64,000 nt of DNA from Paludibacter sp. Its GTDB lineage: Bacteria > Bacteroidota > Bacteroidia > Bacteroidales > Paludibacteraceae. A program made the position numbers and the translations under genes. Within the stretch, counting starts at the first letter, position 1, and each line of letters begins with the position of its first letter. Below, in pieces: positions 10,243 to 58,600 of this stretch. Where the stretch lies: assembly GCA_031292575.1 (NCBI GenBank), contig JARLGX010000006.1, positions 1 through 64,000 on the forward strand, read 5' to 3'. The notes below the pieces were generated by a model. That model saw only the letters and a program-made list of their open reading frames with translations. It was not told where the DNA came from and made no database searches.

Positions 10243-10598
10243 ATAGTAGGTCGGTTTGTCGCTTTTCCCTTGTGGAATGGAGGAAAGTCCGGGCAACGTA
10301 GAGAGCCATATTTCCTAACGGGAAGCTGTTTGTGAGAGCAGAGTAGCGTAACAGAAAATAACCGCTCCGACTTGTTGGAGTAAGGGTGAAAAGGTGAGGT
10401 AAAAGCTCACCGGGTCCACTGGCAACATTGGATGCCGTACGTCTTATGGGTTGCAAGATCACGTATACCGACGCATGTAGGGTTTCTCGCCCGATGTCGG
10501 GGGGTAGATCGCTAAAGGCAAATGGAAACATTTGTTCGAGATAAATGACAAACGCTTTGTGCAAACAAAGTACAGAACCCGGCTTACAGACCTGCTAT
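10243..10598 (+). ncRNA. rnpB: RNase P RNA, bacterial type A
   Basis: The signature GAGGAAAGTCCGGGC is present near 10277, with ACAGAA and the closing CCCGGCTTACAGACCTG near the 3' end. The 5' segment ATAGTAGGTC pairs with GACCTGCTAT at the 3' end (one G-U pair), forming helix P1. Length, about 356 nt, fits the family. A run of ten T residues follows. This RNA is the catalytic subunit that matures the 5' ends of tRNAs. Confidence 0.95.
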
Positions 10599-10641
10599 TT
10601 TTTTTTTGAAATTTCAGTCCAATAATATACCAAGATTCTTT

Positions 10642-14485: not shown

Positions 14486-14489
14486 AAGT

Positions 14490-14586
14490 GGGTAAGCCCC
14501 CTACATCGCACCGCTACGACCTTTTACCCTTGCTGCGGTCAAGCCCTGGGGGAGTTCAAAGGGAGCTGGTCGTGTAGGACTTACCC
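14490..14586 (-). ncRNA. ffs: Small SRP RNA (4.5S RNA)
   Basis: On the - strand the RNA folds into one long hairpin: GGGTAAG pairs with CTTACCC at the ends, CCTACA with TGTAGG, and CGACC with GGTCG. The Ffh-binding region reads CCCAGG...GCAGCAAGGGTA, and the descending strand contains GGTGCGATGTAG, as in other bacterial 4.5S RNAs. Its apex reads GGCTTGACC instead of the usual GGAA tetraloop region. It is the RNA core of the signal recognition particle. The 3' end is only 4 nt from tRNA-Thr, so RNase P cleavage of the joint transcript probably defines it. Confidence 0.88.
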
Positions 14587-14590
14587 GGCA

Positions 14591-14598
14591 CAAAAGTA
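14591..14598 (-). promoter_or_regulatory. -7 promoter element of ffs
   Basis: On the - strand TACTTTTG lies 5-7 bases before the GGG that opens the SRP RNA stem. Confidence 0.65.
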
Positions 14599-15497: not shown

Positions 15498-15663
15498 TTT
15501 TTAAATTATTGATTATTAAATATATAAATTTGAATTGACAAAATACAAAATGTCAATGCTTGGATTAATAAATAATAACAATACAACATGAAGAATAAGT
15601 ACGCACGGATGTGTCCCAACTCTTTTTGCTATTAATCCCGAAAGCAAAAACAAAAAAAATAAA

Positions 15664-15908
15664 ATTGGCAGGTCTTCTGACTTACTCCCGTCTTTGAACG
15701 CCTTCCCGTATTCAGTTTGCAGCTATCAGTTTTCAGCTATCAGTTTTTTAAGACTGTATCTGTTCACTGTTCACTGTTCACCGAAAAAATCAGTGGCAAA
15801 AGTGTTGTTCAAAACGTTGAAATGGAGCTTACAGCAGCGGGTACTGTTCCGGAATTTGACCGGATTCCCTTTTATTGAAACAATGATGATTGTTTCAATA
15901 CCAAAATC
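15664..15908 (-). promoter_or_regulatory. Cobalamin riboswitch
   Basis: Read on the - strand, the B12 box AGTCAGAAGACCTGCC is at 15682-15667. The core elements are AAAAGGGAATCCGGT with its pairing partner TTCCGGAACAG, ACCCGCTGCTGTAAG, GCCACTG (15797-15791) and GGGAAGGCG. A perfect 10-bp hairpin (TTGAAACAAT / ATTGTTTCAA, 15898-15875) opens the 5' side. Between GCCACTG and GGGAAGGCG the aptamer carries an insert of 7-bp tandem repeats. The aptamer lies about 170 nt before the DUF4465 gene, with a GCAAAAA hairpin (about 15622-15655) as a possible expression platform. Riboswitches of this class lower expression when adenosylcobalamin or related cobalamins are abundant. Confidence 0.92.
15720..15780. 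repeat. Heptameric tandem repeats inside the riboswitch
   Basis: On the + strand AGCTATC AGTTTTC AGCTATC AGTTTTT (7-bp frame) is followed after a short gap by TGTTCAC three times in tandem. Both arrays lie in the peripheral loop of the cobalamin aptamer, outside its conserved core. Confidence 0.75.
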
Positions 15909-15913
15909 AGCTG

Positions 15914-15921
15914 CAAAAGTA
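15914..15921 (-). promoter_or_regulatory. -7 promoter element of riboswitch transcript
   Basis: On the - strand TACTTTTG lies just upstream of the riboswitch 5' hairpin, which places the start of transcription near 15908. Confidence 0.6.
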
Positions 15922-48976: not shown

Positions 48977-49345
48977 ATGAAAAGCCAATCACTAACTCAA
49001 ACTATTCAAGTACAAGAAAATCAAACAGCTTCGCAATATGGTTCAGGCTTACTACCCGTGTATGCCACTCCTGCTTTGATTGCGTTAATGGAAAATACAG
49101 CAATGCAGCTTATTGAGCCTCCCGAAGGAAGTTCAAGTGTGGGTATTTCGATAAATATGCAACATTTGAAAGCTAGTCCTATCGGCGCTGAAATTACGTG
49201 TAAAGCAACAATTATTTCAAATGAAGGTAGAAAGTATATTTTTAAAATTGAAGCAACCGATAAATTGGGAGATTTAATTGGAGAATGCATTCACGAACGG
49301 GTTGTTGTAAACATTGAAAAGTTTTTGAGTAAGATTAAACTATAG
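48977..49345 (+). CDS. Hotdog-fold thioesterase, FlK-like
   Basis: The 122-residue protein matches the fluoroacetyl-CoA thioesterase-like hotdog family: VYATPALIALMENTAMQLIE carries the catalytic Thr/Glu-type helix (ENTA), SVGISINMQHLKASPIG is the hotdog strand, and GECIHERVVVN ends the fold. It should hydrolyse a small acyl-CoA in the cytosol; the substrate is not known. It lies 21 bp behind the flippase gene but is probably functionally unrelated to it. Confidence 0.88.
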   Translation: MKSQSLTQTIQVQENQTASQYGSGLLPVYATPALIALMENTAMQLIEPPEGSSSVGISINMQHLKASPIGAEITCKATIISNEGRKYIFKIEATDKLGDLIGECIHERVVVNIEKFLSKIKL

Positions 49346-49411: not shown

Positions 49412-49419
49412 TACCTTTG
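49412..49419 (+). promoter_or_regulatory. -7 promoter element of Mg2+ operon leader
   Basis: TACCTTTG matches TAnnTTTG and places transcription start near 49426, giving a leader of about 136 nt before the ATG at 49562. Confidence 0.6.
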
Positions 49420-49425
49420 TGCCGA

Positions 49426-49561
49426 AATTAAAAAAACAATCCAAAATGGACGACGACCCTGCGATACGAAATTTAGTAAAAATCATCCTGATTTAAAAGG
49501 TCGTCTGAACGTATCAATCCCTCAGTCAGCCTTCTATATCTACAAAAAAAAGGAGGTGACA
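49426..49561 (+). promoter_or_regulatory. Structured leader of Mg2+ operon
   Basis: The leader contains two long-range complementarities that interlock: GACGACC (49452-49458) with GGTCGTC (49499-49505), and GATACG (49463-49468) with CGTATC (49510-49515). This order allows either an H-type pseudoknot or two alternative helices. It encloses a 16-codon ORF and ends in AGGAGG (49551-49556). It does not match the M-box or yybP-ykoY riboswitch signatures known to me. A cis-regulatory role is inferred. Confidence 0.45.
49446..49496 (+). CDS. Candidate leader peptide MDDDPAIRNLVKIILI
   Basis: The 16-codon ORF lies about 20 nt after the predicted transcription start and before the soluble MgtE-domain gene. 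Its N-terminus, Met-Asp-Asp-Asp-Pro, is of the type that destabilises translating ribosomes when Mg2+ is low; MgtL of Escherichia coli (MEPDPTPLP...) is the known example. The Asp codons form one arm of a leader helix. No clear Shine-Dalgarno precedes it, which is normal for Bacteroidetes. A chance ORF of this size cannot be excluded. Confidence 0.35.
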   Translation: MDDDPAIRNLVKIILI

Positions 49562-50857
49562 ATGACATCACAAATCACATTTTACTTAAGCCAAATCAAT
49601 GGCTGTAAAATCTATGACATGAACGGAATACGTTTAGGGAAAGTCATGGACGTAATTGTAAATACAACTCAACAAGGGCAACCTCACGAAGAAGCTTTCA
49701 GGCCGGTTATTATTGGACTTAAAACCAAAATAAAAGGAGAAATCTGTTATCTGAATTTTGAGTTTATTAAAATTGAAAGTAAACGAAAAAACTTTATTTT
49801 TAAATGTTCTCAACTTGATTTCTTACCCGAATCAAAGATAGAAAATTGTTTACCACTTGTCAAAAATATCCTTGATCGTCAAATAGTTGACATCAATGGT
49901 AGAAAACTTGTACGAGTAAACGATATACGATTGGTATCAATCCCCTCTGGCACTTTTGCTATTGCTGTTGACATTGGAACTGAAGGTCTATTTCGTAGAT
50001 TAGGAATAGCTGATTTTGTAAATGACATACTAAATATAGTAAAACTTAATTTGCCAACACAATATATATTGTGGGATGATGTTGAAGCCTTAGATAGCTC
50101 AAATTTTAACATAAAGCTTTCTCATTCTACAAATAAACTTCAACTTCTACATCCTTCCGACTTAGCTGACATTATTGAAGAAATGGGATCTAAATCCCGA
50201 AAAACGGTTTTTGAATCGCTCGATGAAGAAAAGGCTGCTGATGTATTGGAAGAAATGGAACCTTATGCTCAAGCACAAATTATCGAAAGCTTATCGATTG
50301 GAAAAGCTGCCGATTTACTGGAAAAAATGCCTGCTGATGAGGTAGCCGATTTACTTGATGAACTTGAAGATGAAAAAGTAGAATTACTTTTGAACGAAAT
50401 GGAAAAGGAATCTTCAGAGGAAGTTCGTGAGTTACTCGAATATGAAGATAAAGAAGTAGGAAGCTTAATGACAACAGATTATCTTTCTTTCCGCGAGGGC
50501 ATGACCATAGAAGAAACGCTGAACGAATTGCGCCGTCAAAAACCAGAAGCCGATACAATATACTCTTTGTTTATAACGAATGAAGAAGAAAAATTAATTG
50601 CAACTGTCACATTGAGAGATCTTGTAATATCCTCACCTACAATGACTTTATCAGAAATTATGAATAAACAATTTATTCGCGTGTTTGATGAAGATAAGAT
50701 AAATACACTTGCTGAAATTATTTCTAAATACGATTTATTAGCTATTCCTGTAACCGATGCAGAGAATACATTGATGGGCATGGTTGTAATTGATGATATT
50801 GTAGAAGATTTAATGTTAAAAGGAAAAACAAAGAAAGGAGGTCGGTCGTGGCGTTAA
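49562..50857 (+). CDS. Soluble PRC-barrel/MgtE-N/CBS protein, partner of NRAMP-type transporter
   Basis: The protein of about 431 residues starts with two PRC-barrel-like units (INGCKIYDMNGIRLGKVMDV at residue 12; RQIVDINGRKLVRVNDIRLV near 106), then an MgtE N-terminal superhelix (LHPSDLADIIEEMGSK, EEKAADVLEEMEPYAQA, LEKMPADEVADLLDELEDE) and a CBS pair (LMTTDYLSFREGMTIEETL...). The MgtE membrane domain is missing. In MgtE these parts form the cytosolic Mg2+ sensor that gates the channel. The gene overlaps the transporter gene by 10 bp, so the two products probably form a split sensor-transporter. The ATG at 49562 has AGGAGG 5 bases upstream; a GTG lies two codons earlier. Confidence 0.85.
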   Translation: MTSQITFYLSQINGCKIYDMNGIRLGKVMDVIVNTTQQGQPHEEAFRPVIIGLKTKIKGEICYLNFEFIKIESKRKNFIFKCSQLDFLPESKIENCLPLVKNILDRQIVDINGRKLVRVNDIRLVSIPSGTFAIAVDIGTEGLFRRLGIADFVNDILNIVKLNLPTQYILWDDVEALDSSNFNIKLSHSTNKLQLLHPSDLADIIEEMGSKSRKTVFESLDEEKAADVLEEMEPYAQAQIIESLSIGKAADLLEKMPADEVADLLDELEDEKVELLLNEMEKESSEEVRELLEYEDKEVGSLMTTDYLSFREGMTIEETLNELRRQKPEADTIYSLFITNEEEKLIATVTLRDLVISSPTMTLSEIMNKQFIRVFDEDKINTLAEIISKYDLLAIPVTDAENTLMGMVVIDDIVEDLMLKGKTKKGGRSWR

Positions 50858-52110
50858 TTAAATACTCAGAATTTAGCAAGAGAAGAAAAAATATTTGGCG
50901 AACCCTTTTAATCTTTCTTGCAATTTTAGGTCCGGGCATTATAACTGGAAGCGTTGATAACGATGCAGGTGGAATAACTACTTATTCTGTAGCCGGTGCT
51001 TTGTATGGTTATAATTTACTTTGGACTATGTTTCCTGCTTTTTTAGTACTGGTTGTTGTTCAGGAAATGAATGCTCGTATGGGAATTGTAACCGGCAAAG
51101 GATTGGCCGATTTGATTCGCGAAAATGCCGGAGTGAAAATTACTTTCTTTATTTTTGTAGGATTATTAATTGCAGATATTGGTAATACTACCACTGAATT
51201 TGCAGGGGTTGCAGGCAGTATGCAGGTATTCAACATAAGTAAATATATAAGTGTACCAATTTCAGCATTACTTGTTTGGTGGTTAGTAGTAAAAGGAACT
51301 TACAAAATTAGTGAACGTGTTTTTCTAATTTTCAGCGCATTTTTACTTGTATATGTAGTTTCAGCATTTTTAGGCAAACCCCATTGGCATGAAATTGGTC
51401 GGGCAATGATTAAACCTGAAATTGAATATACAAAAGATTATTTAGTCATTGTGATTGGAATAATTGGGACAACTATTGCACCTTGGATGCAATTTTATAT
51501 GCAATCGGCTGTTATCGAGAAAGGCTTAAAAATTACCGATTACAAATATACACTTTGGGACGTAATTATTGGAAGTGTAATTACCGTTGTTGTTGCATTC
51601 TTTATTATTGTTGCCTGTGCTTCAACACTTCATGTAAATGGAATTACCATTAACGAGGCGAAAGATGCTGCTATGGCTTTAAAACCCCTCGCCGGCGATT
51701 TAGCATCAGTAACTTTTGCTTTCGGATTGTTTATAGCCTCCATCTTTTCAGCTACTATTTTGCCTGTTGCTACAGCTTTTTATGTTTGTGAAGCATTTGG
51801 ATTTGAAGCTGGAATTGACAAGAAGTGGAAAGAAGCCCCTCAATTTTATTGGTTATTCACATTTATCATTATTATTGGAGCATCTATAATACTAATTCCT
51901 AACGCTCCACTAATTTTAATCACCTTGTGGTCGCAAGTTGCAAATGGAGTATTACTCCCCGTGGTTTTAATTTGCATGATTTTAATTGTGAATAACAAAG
52001 AAGTAATGGGAAAATATGTAAATAAACCTTTACAAAATATTTTCGGGTGGTTCACAATTTCTGTATTAATAGGACTCACCATCGCACTTTTTGCTTCTTC
52101 ATTCTTCTAA
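50848..52110 (+). CDS. NRAMP-related transporter, probable Mg2+ type (NRMT-like)
   Basis: The 420-residue protein has about 11 hydrophobic segments and NRAMP-type sequence, for example LGPGIITGSVDNDAGGITTY in segment 1 and RMGIVTGKGLADLIRENAG after segment 2. The canonical DPGN is replaced by DNDA, and the segment-6 A-x-x-MPH motif is replaced by GTTIAPWMQFYMQS, losing the metal-binding methionine and the histidine. NRAMP-related Mg2+ transporters differ from Mn2+/Fe2+ NRAMPs in this way. It starts with GTG, 7 bases after AGGAGG, inside the end of the sensor gene. Mg2+ is favoured as substrate by both the motif changes and the MgtE-type partner. Confidence 0.88.
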   Translation: MALIKYSEFSKRRKNIWRTLLIFLAILGPGIITGSVDNDAGGITTYSVAGALYGYNLLWTMFPAFLVLVVVQEMNARMGIVTGKGLADLIRENAGVKITFFIFVGLLIADIGNTTTEFAGVAGSMQVFNISKYISVPISALLVWWLVVKGTYKISERVFLIFSAFLLVYVVSAFLGKPHWHEIGRAMIKPEIEYTKDYLVIVIGIIGTTIAPWMQFYMQSAVIEKGLKITDYKYTLWDVIIGSVITVVVAFFIIVACASTLHVNGITINEAKDAAMALKPLAGDLASVTFAFGLFIASIFSATILPVATAFYVCEAFGFEAGIDKKWKEAPQFYWLFTFIIIIGASIILIPNAPLILITLWSQVANGVLLPVVLICMILIVNNKEVMGKYVNKPLQNIFGWFTISVLIGLTIALFASSFF

Positions 52111-52295: not shown

Positions 52296-53612
52296 ATGAA
52301 AAAGTTTAATATCACTACTATAATACTCATTATAAGTAGCTTACAAATCTATGCACAACAAGCCACAGATTCATTAAAAGATGAAAGATTTACAGTCCAT
52401 GGCCAATCCACTTTTATTTCTCAGTATAAACCAACATTCTCAGCAAAATATAGTGGTACAAACAGCTTAGTCACTCGGCAAGAGTCACAAATATCAACAA
52501 CGTTCACACTATTTCTTGGAGCTAGGTTATGGAAAGGTGCCAGTGCTTTTTTCAATCCCGAAGTTGCAGGAGGTTCAGGTTTAAGTGGCTCAGTTGGTGT
52601 TGGTGCTTCCACAAATGGTGAAACATATAGAATTGGGAATCCATCACCTACATTTGAATTGGCTCGTCTCTATTTTACTCAAATTTTAACTTTAAATAAT
52701 GAGTATAAATATCATGAGAGTGATCAAAATACTCTTTCAGGGAAAGTGCCAACTAACTACCTTGCACTTACAATAGGTAAAATTTGTGTTTCTGATTTTT
52801 TCGACAAAAACAAATACAGTCATGATCCGAGAACTCAGTTTATGAGTTGGGCATTGATGAGTAATGGTGCTTGGGATTTTCCGGCCAACACAAGAGGTTA
52901 CACTCCAAGCATCGTTTTAGAATGGGTTACGCCCAATAATGAGTTACGTTACGATTTCTCATTATTACCTACGGTAGCGAATGGAATGGCTATGAACTGG
53001 GATGTTAATAAAGCTGGATCGCACACAATAGAATATACCCATAATTACAACCTTTCAGGTAAAAATGGAACTGTAAGATTATTCACATTTCTCAATTATG
53101 GCAATATGGGAAATTATAATGAGAGTTTAGCACTCAATTCTACATCTCCCGACATTATAAATACAAGAAAATATGGACGCACTAAATATGGATTTGGTCT
53201 TAATGCTGAACAAGCCATAAATAGTGATTTGGGAGTTTTTTTTAGAGCAGGTTGGAATGATGGGAATAATGAAACGTGGGCATTTACAGAAATAGATCGT
53301 ACAGTTAGTTTAGGACTTTCGGCTACAGGTAATCGTTGGAACAGACCAAATGACAATGTAGGTTTAGCACATGTTATTTCGGGAATATCAACTCCGCATC
53401 TCAACTATTTAAAAGCAGGCGGTATGGGCTTTGAATTGGGTGATGGCAACCTGAACTATTCTCTGGAAAATCTTACTGAATTTTATTATTCGTTTCAAAT
53501 GTCAAGTAATATATCATTATCGGCTGCATATCAGCACATTATAAATCCTGGGTATAATAAAGACAGGGGCCCTGTTGATGTTCTTTCTGTTCGATTACAC
53601 TTACAAATATAA
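52296..53612 (+). CDS. Carbohydrate porin, OprB family-like
   Basis: The 438-residue outer-membrane protein has a signal peptide (FNITTIILIISSLQIYAQ). The OprB-like blocks are FTVHGQSTFISQYKPTFSAKY, WKGASAFFNPEVAGGSGLS, TNYLALTIGKICVSDFFD, FMSWALMSNGAWDFPANTRG and, near the end, ISLSAAYQHIINPGYNKDRGP. Beta-strands alternate throughout and the protein ends in a strand (VRLHLQI). It should form a passive outer-membrane channel; the sugar preference is unknown. It is monocistronic. Confidence 0.85.
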   Translation: MKKFNITTIILIISSLQIYAQQATDSLKDERFTVHGQSTFISQYKPTFSAKYSGTNSLVTRQESQISTTFTLFLGARLWKGASAFFNPEVAGGSGLSGSVGVGASTNGETYRIGNPSPTFELARLYFTQILTLNNEYKYHESDQNTLSGKVPTNYLALTIGKICVSDFFDKNKYSHDPRTQFMSWALMSNGAWDFPANTRGYTPSIVLEWVTPNNELRYDFSLLPTVANGMAMNWDVNKAGSHTIEYTHNYNLSGKNGTVRLFTFLNYGNMGNYNESLALNSTSPDIINTRKYGRTKYGFGLNAEQAINSDLGVFFRAGWNDGNNETWAFTEIDRTVSLGLSATGNRWNRPNDNVGLAHVISGISTPHLNYLKAGGMGFELGDGNLNYSLENLTEFYYSFQMSSNISLSAAYQHIINPGYNKDRGPVDVLSVRLHLQI

Positions 53613-55456: not shown

Positions 55457-55642
55457 AGAAAAGCTAACCGCATTGTTCTGAGATTGGAAAACTCAACGTT
55501 AAAAAAATTAACGAGTAATGTTCGGTTTTTAATGGCGGGCTGCGCCTCCGGGTATCCTTTATGGACGGCAGATTACAACGAGAACCAACACCTCAAATCC
55601 TATTTATAGGAGTTTTCTCAACTAACGGCAATGCGGTTTTTT
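55457..55642 (+). ncRNA. Structured RNA, candidate 6S RNA
   Basis: The transcript of about 185 nt is closed by a perfect 10-bp stem, AACCGCATTG (55466-55475) with CAATGCGGTT (55629-55638), and T residues follow. Inside, GAAAAC (55487-55492) pairs with GTTTTC (55612-55617). A central bubble then carries small hairpins on both sides (CGTTAA/TTAACG at 55497-55513; TCCTA/TAGGA at 55598-55611). A terminal domain starts with GTAAT/ATTAC. Length, long closing stem and central bubble are those of 6S RNA, which mimics an open promoter and binds RNA polymerase. Identity as 6S is inferred. Confidence 0.55.
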
Positions 55643-58600
55643 CACCTACCTACCTCTGATAAAATTTTCCATGCTGTTTCAACTGTTTTGACATCTGAAA
55701 ACACTACAGAACGTCTCATATTTTTTTCACGCAATTGGCATCTACGCGGATGAGTGGTCATATATTGTAACAAACTTCCGAAAACTTCTGAATGATAATA
55801 AGGCGATTGCGGATTTGAAACCAGGAAGGCTGACATTGATTCATTTTTTAGTACCAATTTTTCAATTCCAAACCGCATGGCCAGCCAACGTAATCGGACT
55901 ACTAAAATCAGACTTTGACCTTCAGGCGGAATTTTTCCAAATCGGTCTTCCAACCGTTTTTCAAACTCAATTAATCCTGACTCAGTTTCAATATTATCCA
56001 ATTCACGATATAAACTGATTCGTTCCGAAACATTTTCGATATAATTTGCAGAGAACAGCACTTCTAAATCTGAATCAATCTGACAATCAGTTACAAATGC
56101 TGTTGTTGATTCACTTTCTATGCGTTCGTCAGCGTATAAATCGGCAAATTCTTCATCTTTCAATTCATGAACTGCTTCATTAAGAATTTTTTGATATGTT
56201 TCGTAGCCCAAATCGGCAATAAAACCGCTTTGCTCTGCCCCAAGCATATTTCCGGCTCCACGAATGTCTAAATCTTGCATCGCAATATTAAATCCACTTC
56301 CTAATTCGGCAAAAGTTTCTATCGCTTGCAAACGTCGGCGAGCTTCAGGAGTTAAAAGACTCATTTCTGGAGCTATTAAATAGCAAAAAGCTTTACGGTT
56401 ACTGCGTCCTACCCTACCTCTTAACTGGTGCAAATCACTTAATCCGAAATTATGAGCGTTATTTATGATAATTGTATTGACACTTGGAATATCAATTCCA
56501 GATTCAATAATGGTTGTTGCAACTAATACATCATATTCATAATCTATAAAATCAACGATTACTTCTTCTAGTTTATCTGCAGGCATTTGTCCATGACCAA
56601 CTGCTACCCTACAACCGGGAACTAGCCTTTTGATCATGTTTTCAATTACATAAATATTCTGAATGCGATTGTTTACAAAGAAAACTTGTCCGTTACGGTT
56701 CATTTCTATCTGAATTGCTTCACGAATTACATCTTCATCAAATAAATGTATTTCTGTCTGAACAGGGTAACGGTTTGGTGGAGGAGTATTTATTATGGAT
56801 AAATCGCGAGCGCCCATTAATGAAAACTGCAAAGTTCGGGGAATGGGAGTTGCAGTCATTGTAAGCGTATCCACATTCACTTTCATTTCTTTTAATTTTT
56901 CCTTAACAGTTACGCCGAATTTTTGTTCTTCGTCAATAATAAGAAGACCCAAATCGTTAAATTTTACCGATTTCCCTACCAGTTTATGAGTACCGATCAC
57001 AATATCTACCTGACCTTTTGTAAGTCTTTCAAGTACATCACTTGTTTGTTTACTTGTTCTTGCCCTACTAAGATATTCAATTGTGCAAGGGAAGTCTTTT
57101 AATCGCTCTTTAAACGTGTTATAATGCTGCAAGGCAAGCACAGTTGTTGGCACTAGCACTGCAACTTGTTTGCTGTCAGTCACTGCCTTAAAGGCGGCTC
57201 TGATTGCTATTTCAGTTTTACCAAAACCAACATCTCCGCATACCAACCGGTCCATTGGCAGGGAAGATTCCATATCTTTTTTTACATCTGCAGTAGATTT
57301 TACCTGATCGGGAGTGTCTTCGTAAATAAAAGATGCTTCGAGCTCCTGTTGCAAATAACTATCCGGCGAAAATTGAAAACCTTGTTCCGCTTTTCGTTTG
57401 GCATAGAGTTTAATCAGTTCACGGGCTATATCTTTTACTTTGGTCTTTGTACGCTCTTTCAGTCGTTCCCAGGCACCTGACCCTAATTTATTTATTCTGG
57501 GCGATTCACCTTCTTTTCCTTTGTATTTTGATATGCGATGCAGCGCGTGGATACTTACAAATATAATGTCGTCATCTTTGTAGACGAGCTTCACCATTTC
57601 TTGCATTTTTCCGTTTACATTTGTTCTTACCAGTCCACCAAAAGTACCAACTCCATGATCCACATGAACCATATAATCACCTACCTGAAACTGGTTTAAC
57701 TCTTTAAGAGTCATAACCACTTTACCTAAACGAGTTTTATCGGTTTTAAGCTGGAATTTATGAAAACGGTCGAATATCTGATGATCGGTGTAACACAACA
57801 ATGATAAATCATGATCGATAAAACCTTCGTGCAACGTATTTTTAATAGGTTGAAATGGAATTGCATCTCCACGATCTTTAAATATCGCTGCAATCCGGTC
57901 AGTTTGTTTTGCGCTATCACTTAGTATATAAAGTTTATATCCATCGTTTATCCATTTTGTAAGATTTTCACTCACCAAATCAAAATTTTTATGAAAAATA
58001 GGTTGTGGCGATGTATTAAATGAAATTGTAGTTTTATGTTGAAAATGAGCTTTTTCACCCCATTCCATCTTGCGAAATAATTGAATTTGATCCATAAACT
58101 GGTCACCAGTAATTTGCGTTTTAGCCAAATGAGGAGTTTTATGTTCCACCTCATTCGCTTTCACCAATGCTTCATTGTACAACTGATTAATGCGTTCACG
58201 TACAAATGAAACATTAGAAAAACTAAACCAGGTATTTGCAGGTGTAAATTCAAAAAGTGAGACATGAGGAGAGGCAGTGTCAAGCTGTAAATCAGGAATG
58301 ATGATGATTTCAGTCTTCTTTTCTTGCGAAAGTTGGGTTTCAATGTCAAAAATACGGATAGATTCGACTTCATCACCAAAAAAATCACATCGATATGGCA
58401 ATTCGTTGGCAAATGAAAATATATCTACAATACTACCCCGCACCGAAAACTGCCCTGGCTCATAAACAAAGTCAACCCGCTCAAAATGGTACTCTGTGAG
58501 CATTTCCACGATGAAGTCAATACTCAAATTTTCCCCAACATGCATTCTTAACATCCGGCTTTGCATACTTTTGGCCGAAACAACTTTTTGCATCAACGAT

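Follow-up and report, generated by a model that had tools for sequence, protein, structure and literature searches.

Gene Content of the Locus

The DNA analyzed here, referred to as the window, is a stretch of 64,000 nucleotides from a Paludibacter sp. genome of 3.46 Mb (99.6% complete). Its forward strand carries a promoter box of the TAnnTTTG type, TACCTTTG (49412–49419, recognized by its sequence), located 26 nt before the ATG of a 16-codon leader ORF, MDDDPAIRNLVKIILI (49446–49496). The leader ORF opens with the codons ATG GAC GAC GAC CCT GCG and ends with TAA (49494–49496). The next gene (49562–50857, forward strand) encodes a protein of 431 amino acids with PRC-barrel, MgtE_N and CBS domains assigned by Pfam, the soluble MgtE-like partner of the transporter; hereafter, it is called the sensor gene. 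Its ATG at 49562, assigned from the MTSQ stretch conserved among relatives, is preceded by AAGGAGG and lies 65 nt past the leader stop codon. The sensor gene overlaps by 10 nt with a gene of 420 codons (50848–52110, forward strand; Pfam Nramp), which starts with GTG preceded by AAAGGAGG and encodes an NRMT-type Nramp transporter. A preliminary description of this DNA had reported a promoter-like sequence, a 16-codon ORF starting with Met-Asp-Asp-Asp-Pro, and sensor and transporter genes, all of which were confirmed at 49412–52110; it did not mention competing hairpins after the stop codon, the burial of the Shine-Dalgarno site in one of them or how far the regulon extends.

The clade of the transporter was named NrmT by Shin et al. 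2014 (PMC4072509), who describe most of its members as adjoining a MgtE-like partner gene. Among solved structures, the best match to the window protein is 7qia (E 3.5e-110), described as EleNRMT, a Mg2+ transporter (PMC8806188), and the best MntH match has an E-value of 2.1e-26; a stretch NDAGG is common to the window protein and EleNRMT. By similarity search rather than by a tree, the protein is more distant from MntH than from a solved NRMT that transports Mg2+, and it has the MgtE-like partner gene adjoining it. We regard it as a probable Mg2+ importer.

No matches to CorA or to the MgtE channel domain were found in the window's own genome. Some NrmT genes are preceded by M-boxes, according to the same study (PMC4072509). 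A covariance-model search for the M-box (RF00380) produced no matches in the window and its own genome, and was positive in the controls, B. subtilis and L. lactis.

The operon is flanked by two genes: the one immediately before the leader (48977–49345) encodes a FlK-family (fluoroacetyl-CoA-specific thioesterase) protein, and the one that directly follows the NRMT gene (52296–53612) encodes an OprB-type porin. Rfam families found elsewhere in the window are a cobalamin riboswitch (15650–15920, reverse strand), RNase P RNA (10243–10602, forward), Bacteroidales small SRP RNA (14486–14593, reverse) and Bacteroidales-1 (6S) RNA (55466–55644, forward).

Conservation of the Leader ORF

An ORF of 16 codons is short, which speaks for its being a chance occurrence. 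The two strands of the window contain 136 TAnnTTTG boxes, and a short ORF follows 15–40 nt downstream in 18 cases. Two of these promoter-proximal ORFs start with MD, and an acidic residue at position 3 with a nearby Pro is found solely in the leader ORF. The other MD-start ORF (43330) is antisense to an ORF that looks aminotransferase-like by eye.

Upstream regions of orthologous sensor genes were collected from several sources. A family search and named contigs supplied 23 distinct regions (tblastn E-values no higher than 1e-60) after removal of 5 duplicates, 247 genomes of the order contributed 24, and 395 genomes of the class contributed 6. An M-D-x-x-P ORF of 12–23 codons is present in 48 of these 53 regions, M-D-x-x-P being itself the selection rule of the count. 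No such ORF was recognized in the remaining five (L039, L040, L043, L052 and L071). In L012 and L015, two TAA codons are flagged within the sensor-gene match.

Since the motif itself selected the 48 ORFs, a second count was made regardless of the motif. In 40 of the 49 box-bearing regions, an M-D-x-x-P ORF starts at the first ATG downstream of the last TAnnTTTG box, and in four more this ATG opens an ORF running in frame into M-D-x-x-P, giving 44/49 in total; neither is the case in L052, L064, L065, L068 and L071. The distance between box and ATG is mostly 24–29 nt in orthologous leaders.

Among 40 distinct leader ORFs, in which Asp2 and Pro5 are part of the selection, codon 3 encodes Asp or Glu in 34 and codon 4 encodes Gly or Asp in 37. 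Codon usage drifts within these ORFs (GGA/GGC/GGT/GGG for Gly, GAC/GAT for Asp, CCT/CCG for Pro), and entropy at codons 2–5 peaks at the third position. Beyond codon 6, the peptide is variable. All but one of the 11 Paludibacter leaders start with MDDDP, the exception being MDGDP, and MDEGP and MDDGP are the most frequent starts outside the genus. The preliminary description had proposed testing whether orthologous leaders keep a short acidic/Pro ORF while its DNA drifts; they do, with the ORF in 48/53 leaders and codons 2–5 varying most at the third position. Given this recurrence, the leaders at 42/50 CorA genes described below and the single such ORF among the 18 in the window, a chance ORF is extremely improbable.

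Competing Hairpins and the Shine-Dalgarno Site

The region between the leader start and the sensor gene contains four segments, all on the forward strand. Segment 1 (GACGACC, 49452–49458) covers codons 3–5 and is predicted by folding to pair with GGTCGTC at 49499–49505. The latter lies within segment 2 (49497–49508), the 5′ arm of the antisequestor hairpin 2:3, which resembles a Shine-Dalgarno site. Segment 3 (49522–49535) provides both the 3′ arm of hairpin 2:3 (49522–49533) and the 5′ arm of the sequestor hairpin 3:4 (49525–49535), so the two hairpins are mutually exclusive. Segment 4, AGGAGGTGAC (49551–49560), is the Shine-Dalgarno site of the sensor gene and the 3′ arm of 3:4. The leader stop codon directly abuts segment 2, and in several of the longer leader ORFs segment 2 lies at the ORF end. 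In 43/48 leaders, the bases that sequester the Shine-Dalgarno site have partners close to the leader stop codon in an alternative fold. In two Paludibacter relatives that lack the MD ORF as well as the promoter box, apparent remnants of segments 2–4 precede the sensor gene (L040:1960–2066 and L043:3895–4000).

Pairing was evaluated by an own-versus-others duplex test, an alignment-free comparison of segment energies within the same leader and between leaders, using non-overlapping windows. Applied to 26 lineage representatives chosen by hand from the 48 leaders, it gave z −7.0 for 2:3 and −5.8 for 3:4, with 0/5000 permutations as good in either case, and the control pairings 1:3, 2:4 and 1:4 were null in the same set. 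Against dinucleotide shuffles, the region of 2:3 has a mean z-score of −1.8 and that of 3:4 one of −2.5.

An alignment of 10 Paludibacter leaders shows 97.0% of cells paired in 3:4, with one doubly changed pair (U-A/C-G, 4 versus 6 of 10 rows), and 88.9% in 2:3, with two doubly changed pairs. Slid versions of the same alignment reach at most 81.8% and 59.6%, respectively, below the real values. The covariation score was matched by 4/500 shuffles for 3:4 and by 5/500 for 2:3; the number of pairs with a double change is not above shuffles (464/500 and 51/500, respectively). A buried Shine-Dalgarno site is found in 47/48 leaders, with a maximum of 43 among shuffles, and this count is weak evidence, since shuffles average 36.7/48.

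The strong covariation of hairpins 2:3 and 3:4 could also be expected if the RNA element itself sensed Mg2+ or another ligand, the short ORF being incidental or overlapping. We consider this improbable, as the start of the ORF is conserved as codons, usually no other ATG lies between the promoter box and that of the ORF, and its stop codon abuts segment 2. In addition, no conserved aptamer-like core is seen by eye in the alignment between codon 6 and segment 2, the window's own genome lacks an M-box match, and no Rfam family scores above cut-off in the leader, a loose search yielding two weak viral RNA matches (E 0.71 and 2.4). A leader ORF that is translated constitutively, coupling translation or guarding the mRNA without sensing anything, is a still less probable option: if there were no switch, it would be difficult to see why 26 lineages and the CorA leaders should have retained two hairpins that exclude each other.

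Segment 1 and segment 2 form a helix of 7 pairs in the window, and 92.9% of its cells are paired in the 10 Paludibacter rows, with one compensatory double change that is no better than shuffles (106/500). This 1:2 helix looked at first like a universal part of the leader, but the cross-lineage duplex test did not support this, giving z −1.2 across the 26 lineages and −1.65 with other windows (253/5000); in CorA leaders it is borderline (z −1.9, 174/5000). In Paludibacter, the extra helix may provide an OFF state for untranslated mRNA.

Minimum-energy folding alone is ambiguous (z −2.15). In the window, 3:4 (−10.5 kcal/mol) is more stable than 2:3 (−8.6 kcal/mol), and equilibrium folding leaves the Shine-Dalgarno site paired, with a mean unpaired probability of 0.06, even with segment 1 masked. 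Hence, a switch would have to be kinetic, with 2:3 forming first. With the final 24 nt of the ORF added, the 2:3 stretch equals or exceeds 3:4 in stability in 37/48 NRMT leaders (by 0.5 in the window) and in 25/32 CorA leaders.

Bacteroidota mostly do not use Shine-Dalgarno sites. The AGGAGG of the sensor gene is the only GGAGG or AGGAG before the first ATG among the 39 window ORFs of at least 200 amino acids, a count that leaves out the GTG-start Nramp gene with its AAAGGAGG. The switch would therefore target a Shine-Dalgarno sequence although such sites seem to be hardly used in this genome. Mutually exclusive mRNA structures, a feature of acidic Mg2+ leaders, are found here at the level of pairing, and their control would be exerted through leader translation. 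A further feature of such leaders is Mg2+-dependent, bL31-sensitive destabilization of the ribosome.

Acidic Leaders before CorA, MgtE and Porin Genes

The 247 order genomes were scanned with the pattern TTTG-N18..48-ATGGAYGANGGNCCNG, the looser of two, giving 29 placements, spread over 26 genomes, compared with 3 for the reversed-pattern control. Nineteen are located at NRMT operons, six in probable coding sequence and four before other genes. Those set aside as coding comprise L078, L094, L096 and L099, which resemble the antisense match in an rsmI-like gene of the window's own genome (L077; names assigned by eye), and L097 and L100, which also lack a promoter box. Three of the four non-NRMT placements precede a CorA channel gene (L085, L086 and L089) and one precedes a gene for an OprB porin (L091). 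The L091 porin is 49% identical to the window porin (52296–53612) and has its own MDEGP leader, so porins of this family may let Mg2+ pass the outer membrane. The strict promoter-plus-MD[DE]GP pattern yielded no matches in 395 phylum genomes, being too strict, as the window itself combines TACCTTTG with MDDDP. The NRMT operon is present in only 7/395 genomes of the class sample.

A CorA search of the order genomes returned 50 of the 247, with one match each (E up to 1e-40), and all 50 upstream regions were read. An acidic MD leader ORF (ATGGAY), defined by Asp2 plus Asp, Glu or Gly at codon 3, precedes 42/50 CorA genes; codon 3 encodes Asp in 32, Glu in 9 and Gly in 1 of them. Examples are MDEGPYHSKNKY, MDDYHPDS and MDDSNPRTYSS... 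In 33/42, the ORF starts 15–32 nt after a TAnnTTTG box. A Pro is located within the first seven residues in 31/42 and is missing in 11/42. No such leader was recognized at the other eight CorA loci (L111, L112, L122, L149–L152 and L156).

The duplex test of 32 of the 42 CorA leaders, with relatives not thinned, gave z −8.6 for 2:3 and −8.5 for 3:4 (0/5000 each), with 1:3 and 2:4 null. Leaders dropped beforehand had long spacing or weak relation (L107–L109, L148, L154 and L155) or no recognized Shine-Dalgarno site (L116, L117, L136 and L145).

For MgtE, 36 loci were read, namely the best 30 of the listed matches and L018–L023. An acidic MD leader is found at nine of them, with L021 lacking a Pro near the start; 25 are without a counted leader, and two are unresolved. 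L179 (ORF overlapping the gene start) and L183 (31-codon ORF) were left uncounted. The MgtE proteins of Bacteroidales (L018–L023, L157–L186) seemingly fall into leader-bearing and leaderless types differing in their N-termini: by eye, most of the nine leader-bearing proteins share similar N-termini (e.g., IKIHFQEL), and the leaderless ones are often FELTKEY-like.

Outside the order, five CorA matches were obtained in 67 class genomes; the 260 nt inspected upstream of each contain no separate MD leader. At three corA genes outside the order (L188, L189 and L191), an M-[D/E]-D-D ORF seemingly overlaps the start of corA out of frame, which may be another form of acidic leader or due to chance.

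Short leader ORFs are thus found before NRMT, CorA and MgtE genes, the NRMT being assigned as a probable Mg2+ transporter by sequence. Acidic and Pro residues lie in their first few codons and are kept at the amino-acid level, Pro being missing in the 11/42 CorA leaders mentioned above. Leaders of the same kind before CorA, some MgtE and one porin point to Mg2+ rather than to a single operon, which supports the tie to Mg2+ made in the preliminary description.

The same attenuator build could nevertheless respond to another signal, such as Mn2+, charged tRNA (Asp, Pro), EF-P or the general translation rate, as the identity of the signal cannot be read from the DNA. A NrmT of Acidobacterium capsulatum, which lacks an M-box, carried Mn2+ and not Mg2+ (PMC4072509), and the Salmonella leader ORFs mgtM and mgtP are described as responding to ATP and charged tRNA-Pro (PMC8092293). 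However, similar leaders precede the classic Mg2+ channels CorA and MgtE, and the MntH-type paralog of the window's own genome has no ATGGAY ORF within 220 nt upstream. Moreover, two or three acidic codons with one Pro do not constitute a run of control codons. We consider another signal unlikely, albeit the most serious of the alternatives to Mg2+ sensing by the leader ribosome.

Comparison with Known Leader Peptides

Destabilization of the ribosome by an acidic nascent chain as a means of Mg2+ sensing has been described for Proteobacteria (PMC8092293, PMC11282234, PMC11552253). The closest parallel is mgtQ, an 8-codon ORF before mgtB of Salmonella with Asp2, Glu5 and a 1:2/3:4 versus 2:3 layout (PMC8092293). 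Both mgtQ and the window leader are short ORFs with an acidic start, mgtQ having acidic residues at positions 2 and 5 plus one Pro (PMC8092293). In mgtQ, 3:4 holds the Shine-Dalgarno site of the gene for a Mg2+ transporter and 2:3 releases it, and the window agrees with this by pairing. When the ribosome fails on the mgtQ leader, translation of the transporter is switched on (PMC8092293), and the window leader may act likewise. Unlike mgtQ, which is located between two operon genes (mgtC and mgtB), the window leader is promoter-proximal and precedes the PRC-MgtE_N-CBS gene. Moreover, mgtQ is described for Enterobacteria before mgtB (with a mgtQ-like ORF mentioned for Brucella), whereas the leaders reported here belong to Bacteroidota and precede NRMT, CorA, MgtE and porin genes. 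The 1:2 helix seems not to be generally kept in the Bacteroidota leaders.

MgtL, the leader peptide of mgtA in E. coli and Salmonella, contains an EPDP motif with Glu2 and Asp4, and its expression is inverse to that of the transporter (PMC11282234, PMC11552253). It shares with the window leader an acidic/Pro start and two exclusive mRNA folds; the inverse expression known for MgtL would be expected here as well. However, MgtL acts by Rho-dependent termination, whereas the window has a conserved Shine-Dalgarno sequestor, and beyond acid and Pro no sequence relation to MgtL as described in these sources is seen. EPDP at residues 2–5, the MgtL motif (PMC11282234), was found in none of the first-ATG ORFs of the 49 regions in the rule-free count, the other counts having demanded Asp2.

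Another leader ORF, corL, precedes corA of E. coli and Salmonella and is expressed inversely to it (PMC11552253), resembling the arrangement at the CorA genes of Bacteroidales; it differs in being Rho-based, in having fewer acidic and Pro residues than MgtL and in belonging to Enterobacteria (PMC11552253). The M-box (RF00380) before Clostridium NrmT likewise places an NRMT gene with a MgtE-like partner under Mg2+ control (PMC4072509), but it is an RNA aptamer without a peptide and has no match in the genome of the window.

Descent from MgtL or mgtQ is not claimed; by analogy, the window leader appears to function in the same manner. In attenuators of the trp/erm type, the position of the ribosome selects 2:3 or 3:4, as in the switch proposed here. 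They differ in relying on a run of control codons or on drug binding, neither of which is present in the window leader.

Proposed Mechanism

By comparison across relatives, the acidic/Pro start, the stop codon at segment 2, the exclusive hairpins and the attachment to several families of Mg2+ importers are conserved. A response to Mg2+ and ribosome failure at the acidic/Pro start we infer. We consider it likely that the locus carries a translational attenuator worked by the leader peptide, in which low Mg2+ makes the leader ribosome fail and the importer is produced, and that the same device acts on CorA, the MgtE class and OprB.

We hypothesize that transcription begins just past TACCTTTG and that ribosomes start on the 16-codon leader. 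With sufficient Mg2+, the ribosome would reach the stop codon and cover or melt segment 2; this would free segment 3 to form 3:4 with the Shine-Dalgarno site, so that neither sensor nor transporter would be made. At low Mg2+, the ribosome would be destabilized at Met-Asp-Asp-Asp-Pro, by drop-off or stalling, and would never reach segment 2. Hairpin 2:3 would form first during transcription, leaving the Shine-Dalgarno site open and allowing the importer to be made.

Since the leader ORF and the two competing hairpins are conserved in distant relatives and before unrelated importers, it is probable that a ribosome faltering before the end of the peptide is what triggers magnesium uptake in these bacteria. 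Control of CorA, the MgtE class and at least one OprB porin by the same device would constitute a leader-peptide Mg2+ regulon in Bacteroidales. On balance, we lean towards the view that Mg2+ import in Bacteroidales is organized as such a nascent-peptide regulon, in which M-D-[D/E]-... leaders, mostly with Pro, and a Shine-Dalgarno sequestor would control NRMT, CorA, the MgtE class and a porin in place of the M-box, with the ribosome serving as the Mg2+ sensor.

Novelty and Biological Meaning

A literature search covering main texts and few subscription papers found no paper on the Bacteroidales leader. The parts seen of a B. thetaiotaomicron transcriptome paper mention sORFs in long 5′ UTRs in general terms (PMC7366714), and a uORF tool paper (PMC10219788) contains none of the looked-for terms. 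The principle is known; apparently new, within the scope of this search, are the peptide, the phylum, the reach over NRMT, CorA, MgtE and porin genes, and the promoter-proximal form with a Shine-Dalgarno sequestor.

If the proposed mechanism is true, it would be a second case of its kind, in a distant phylum and before four unrelated gene families, suggesting that ribosome stability is a general cellular gauge of Mg2+, a claim that comparison could then put to the test. It would also explain how Mg2+ import is controlled in a Bacteroidales genome without an M-box, and such leaders may provide simple reporters for Mg2+ status.
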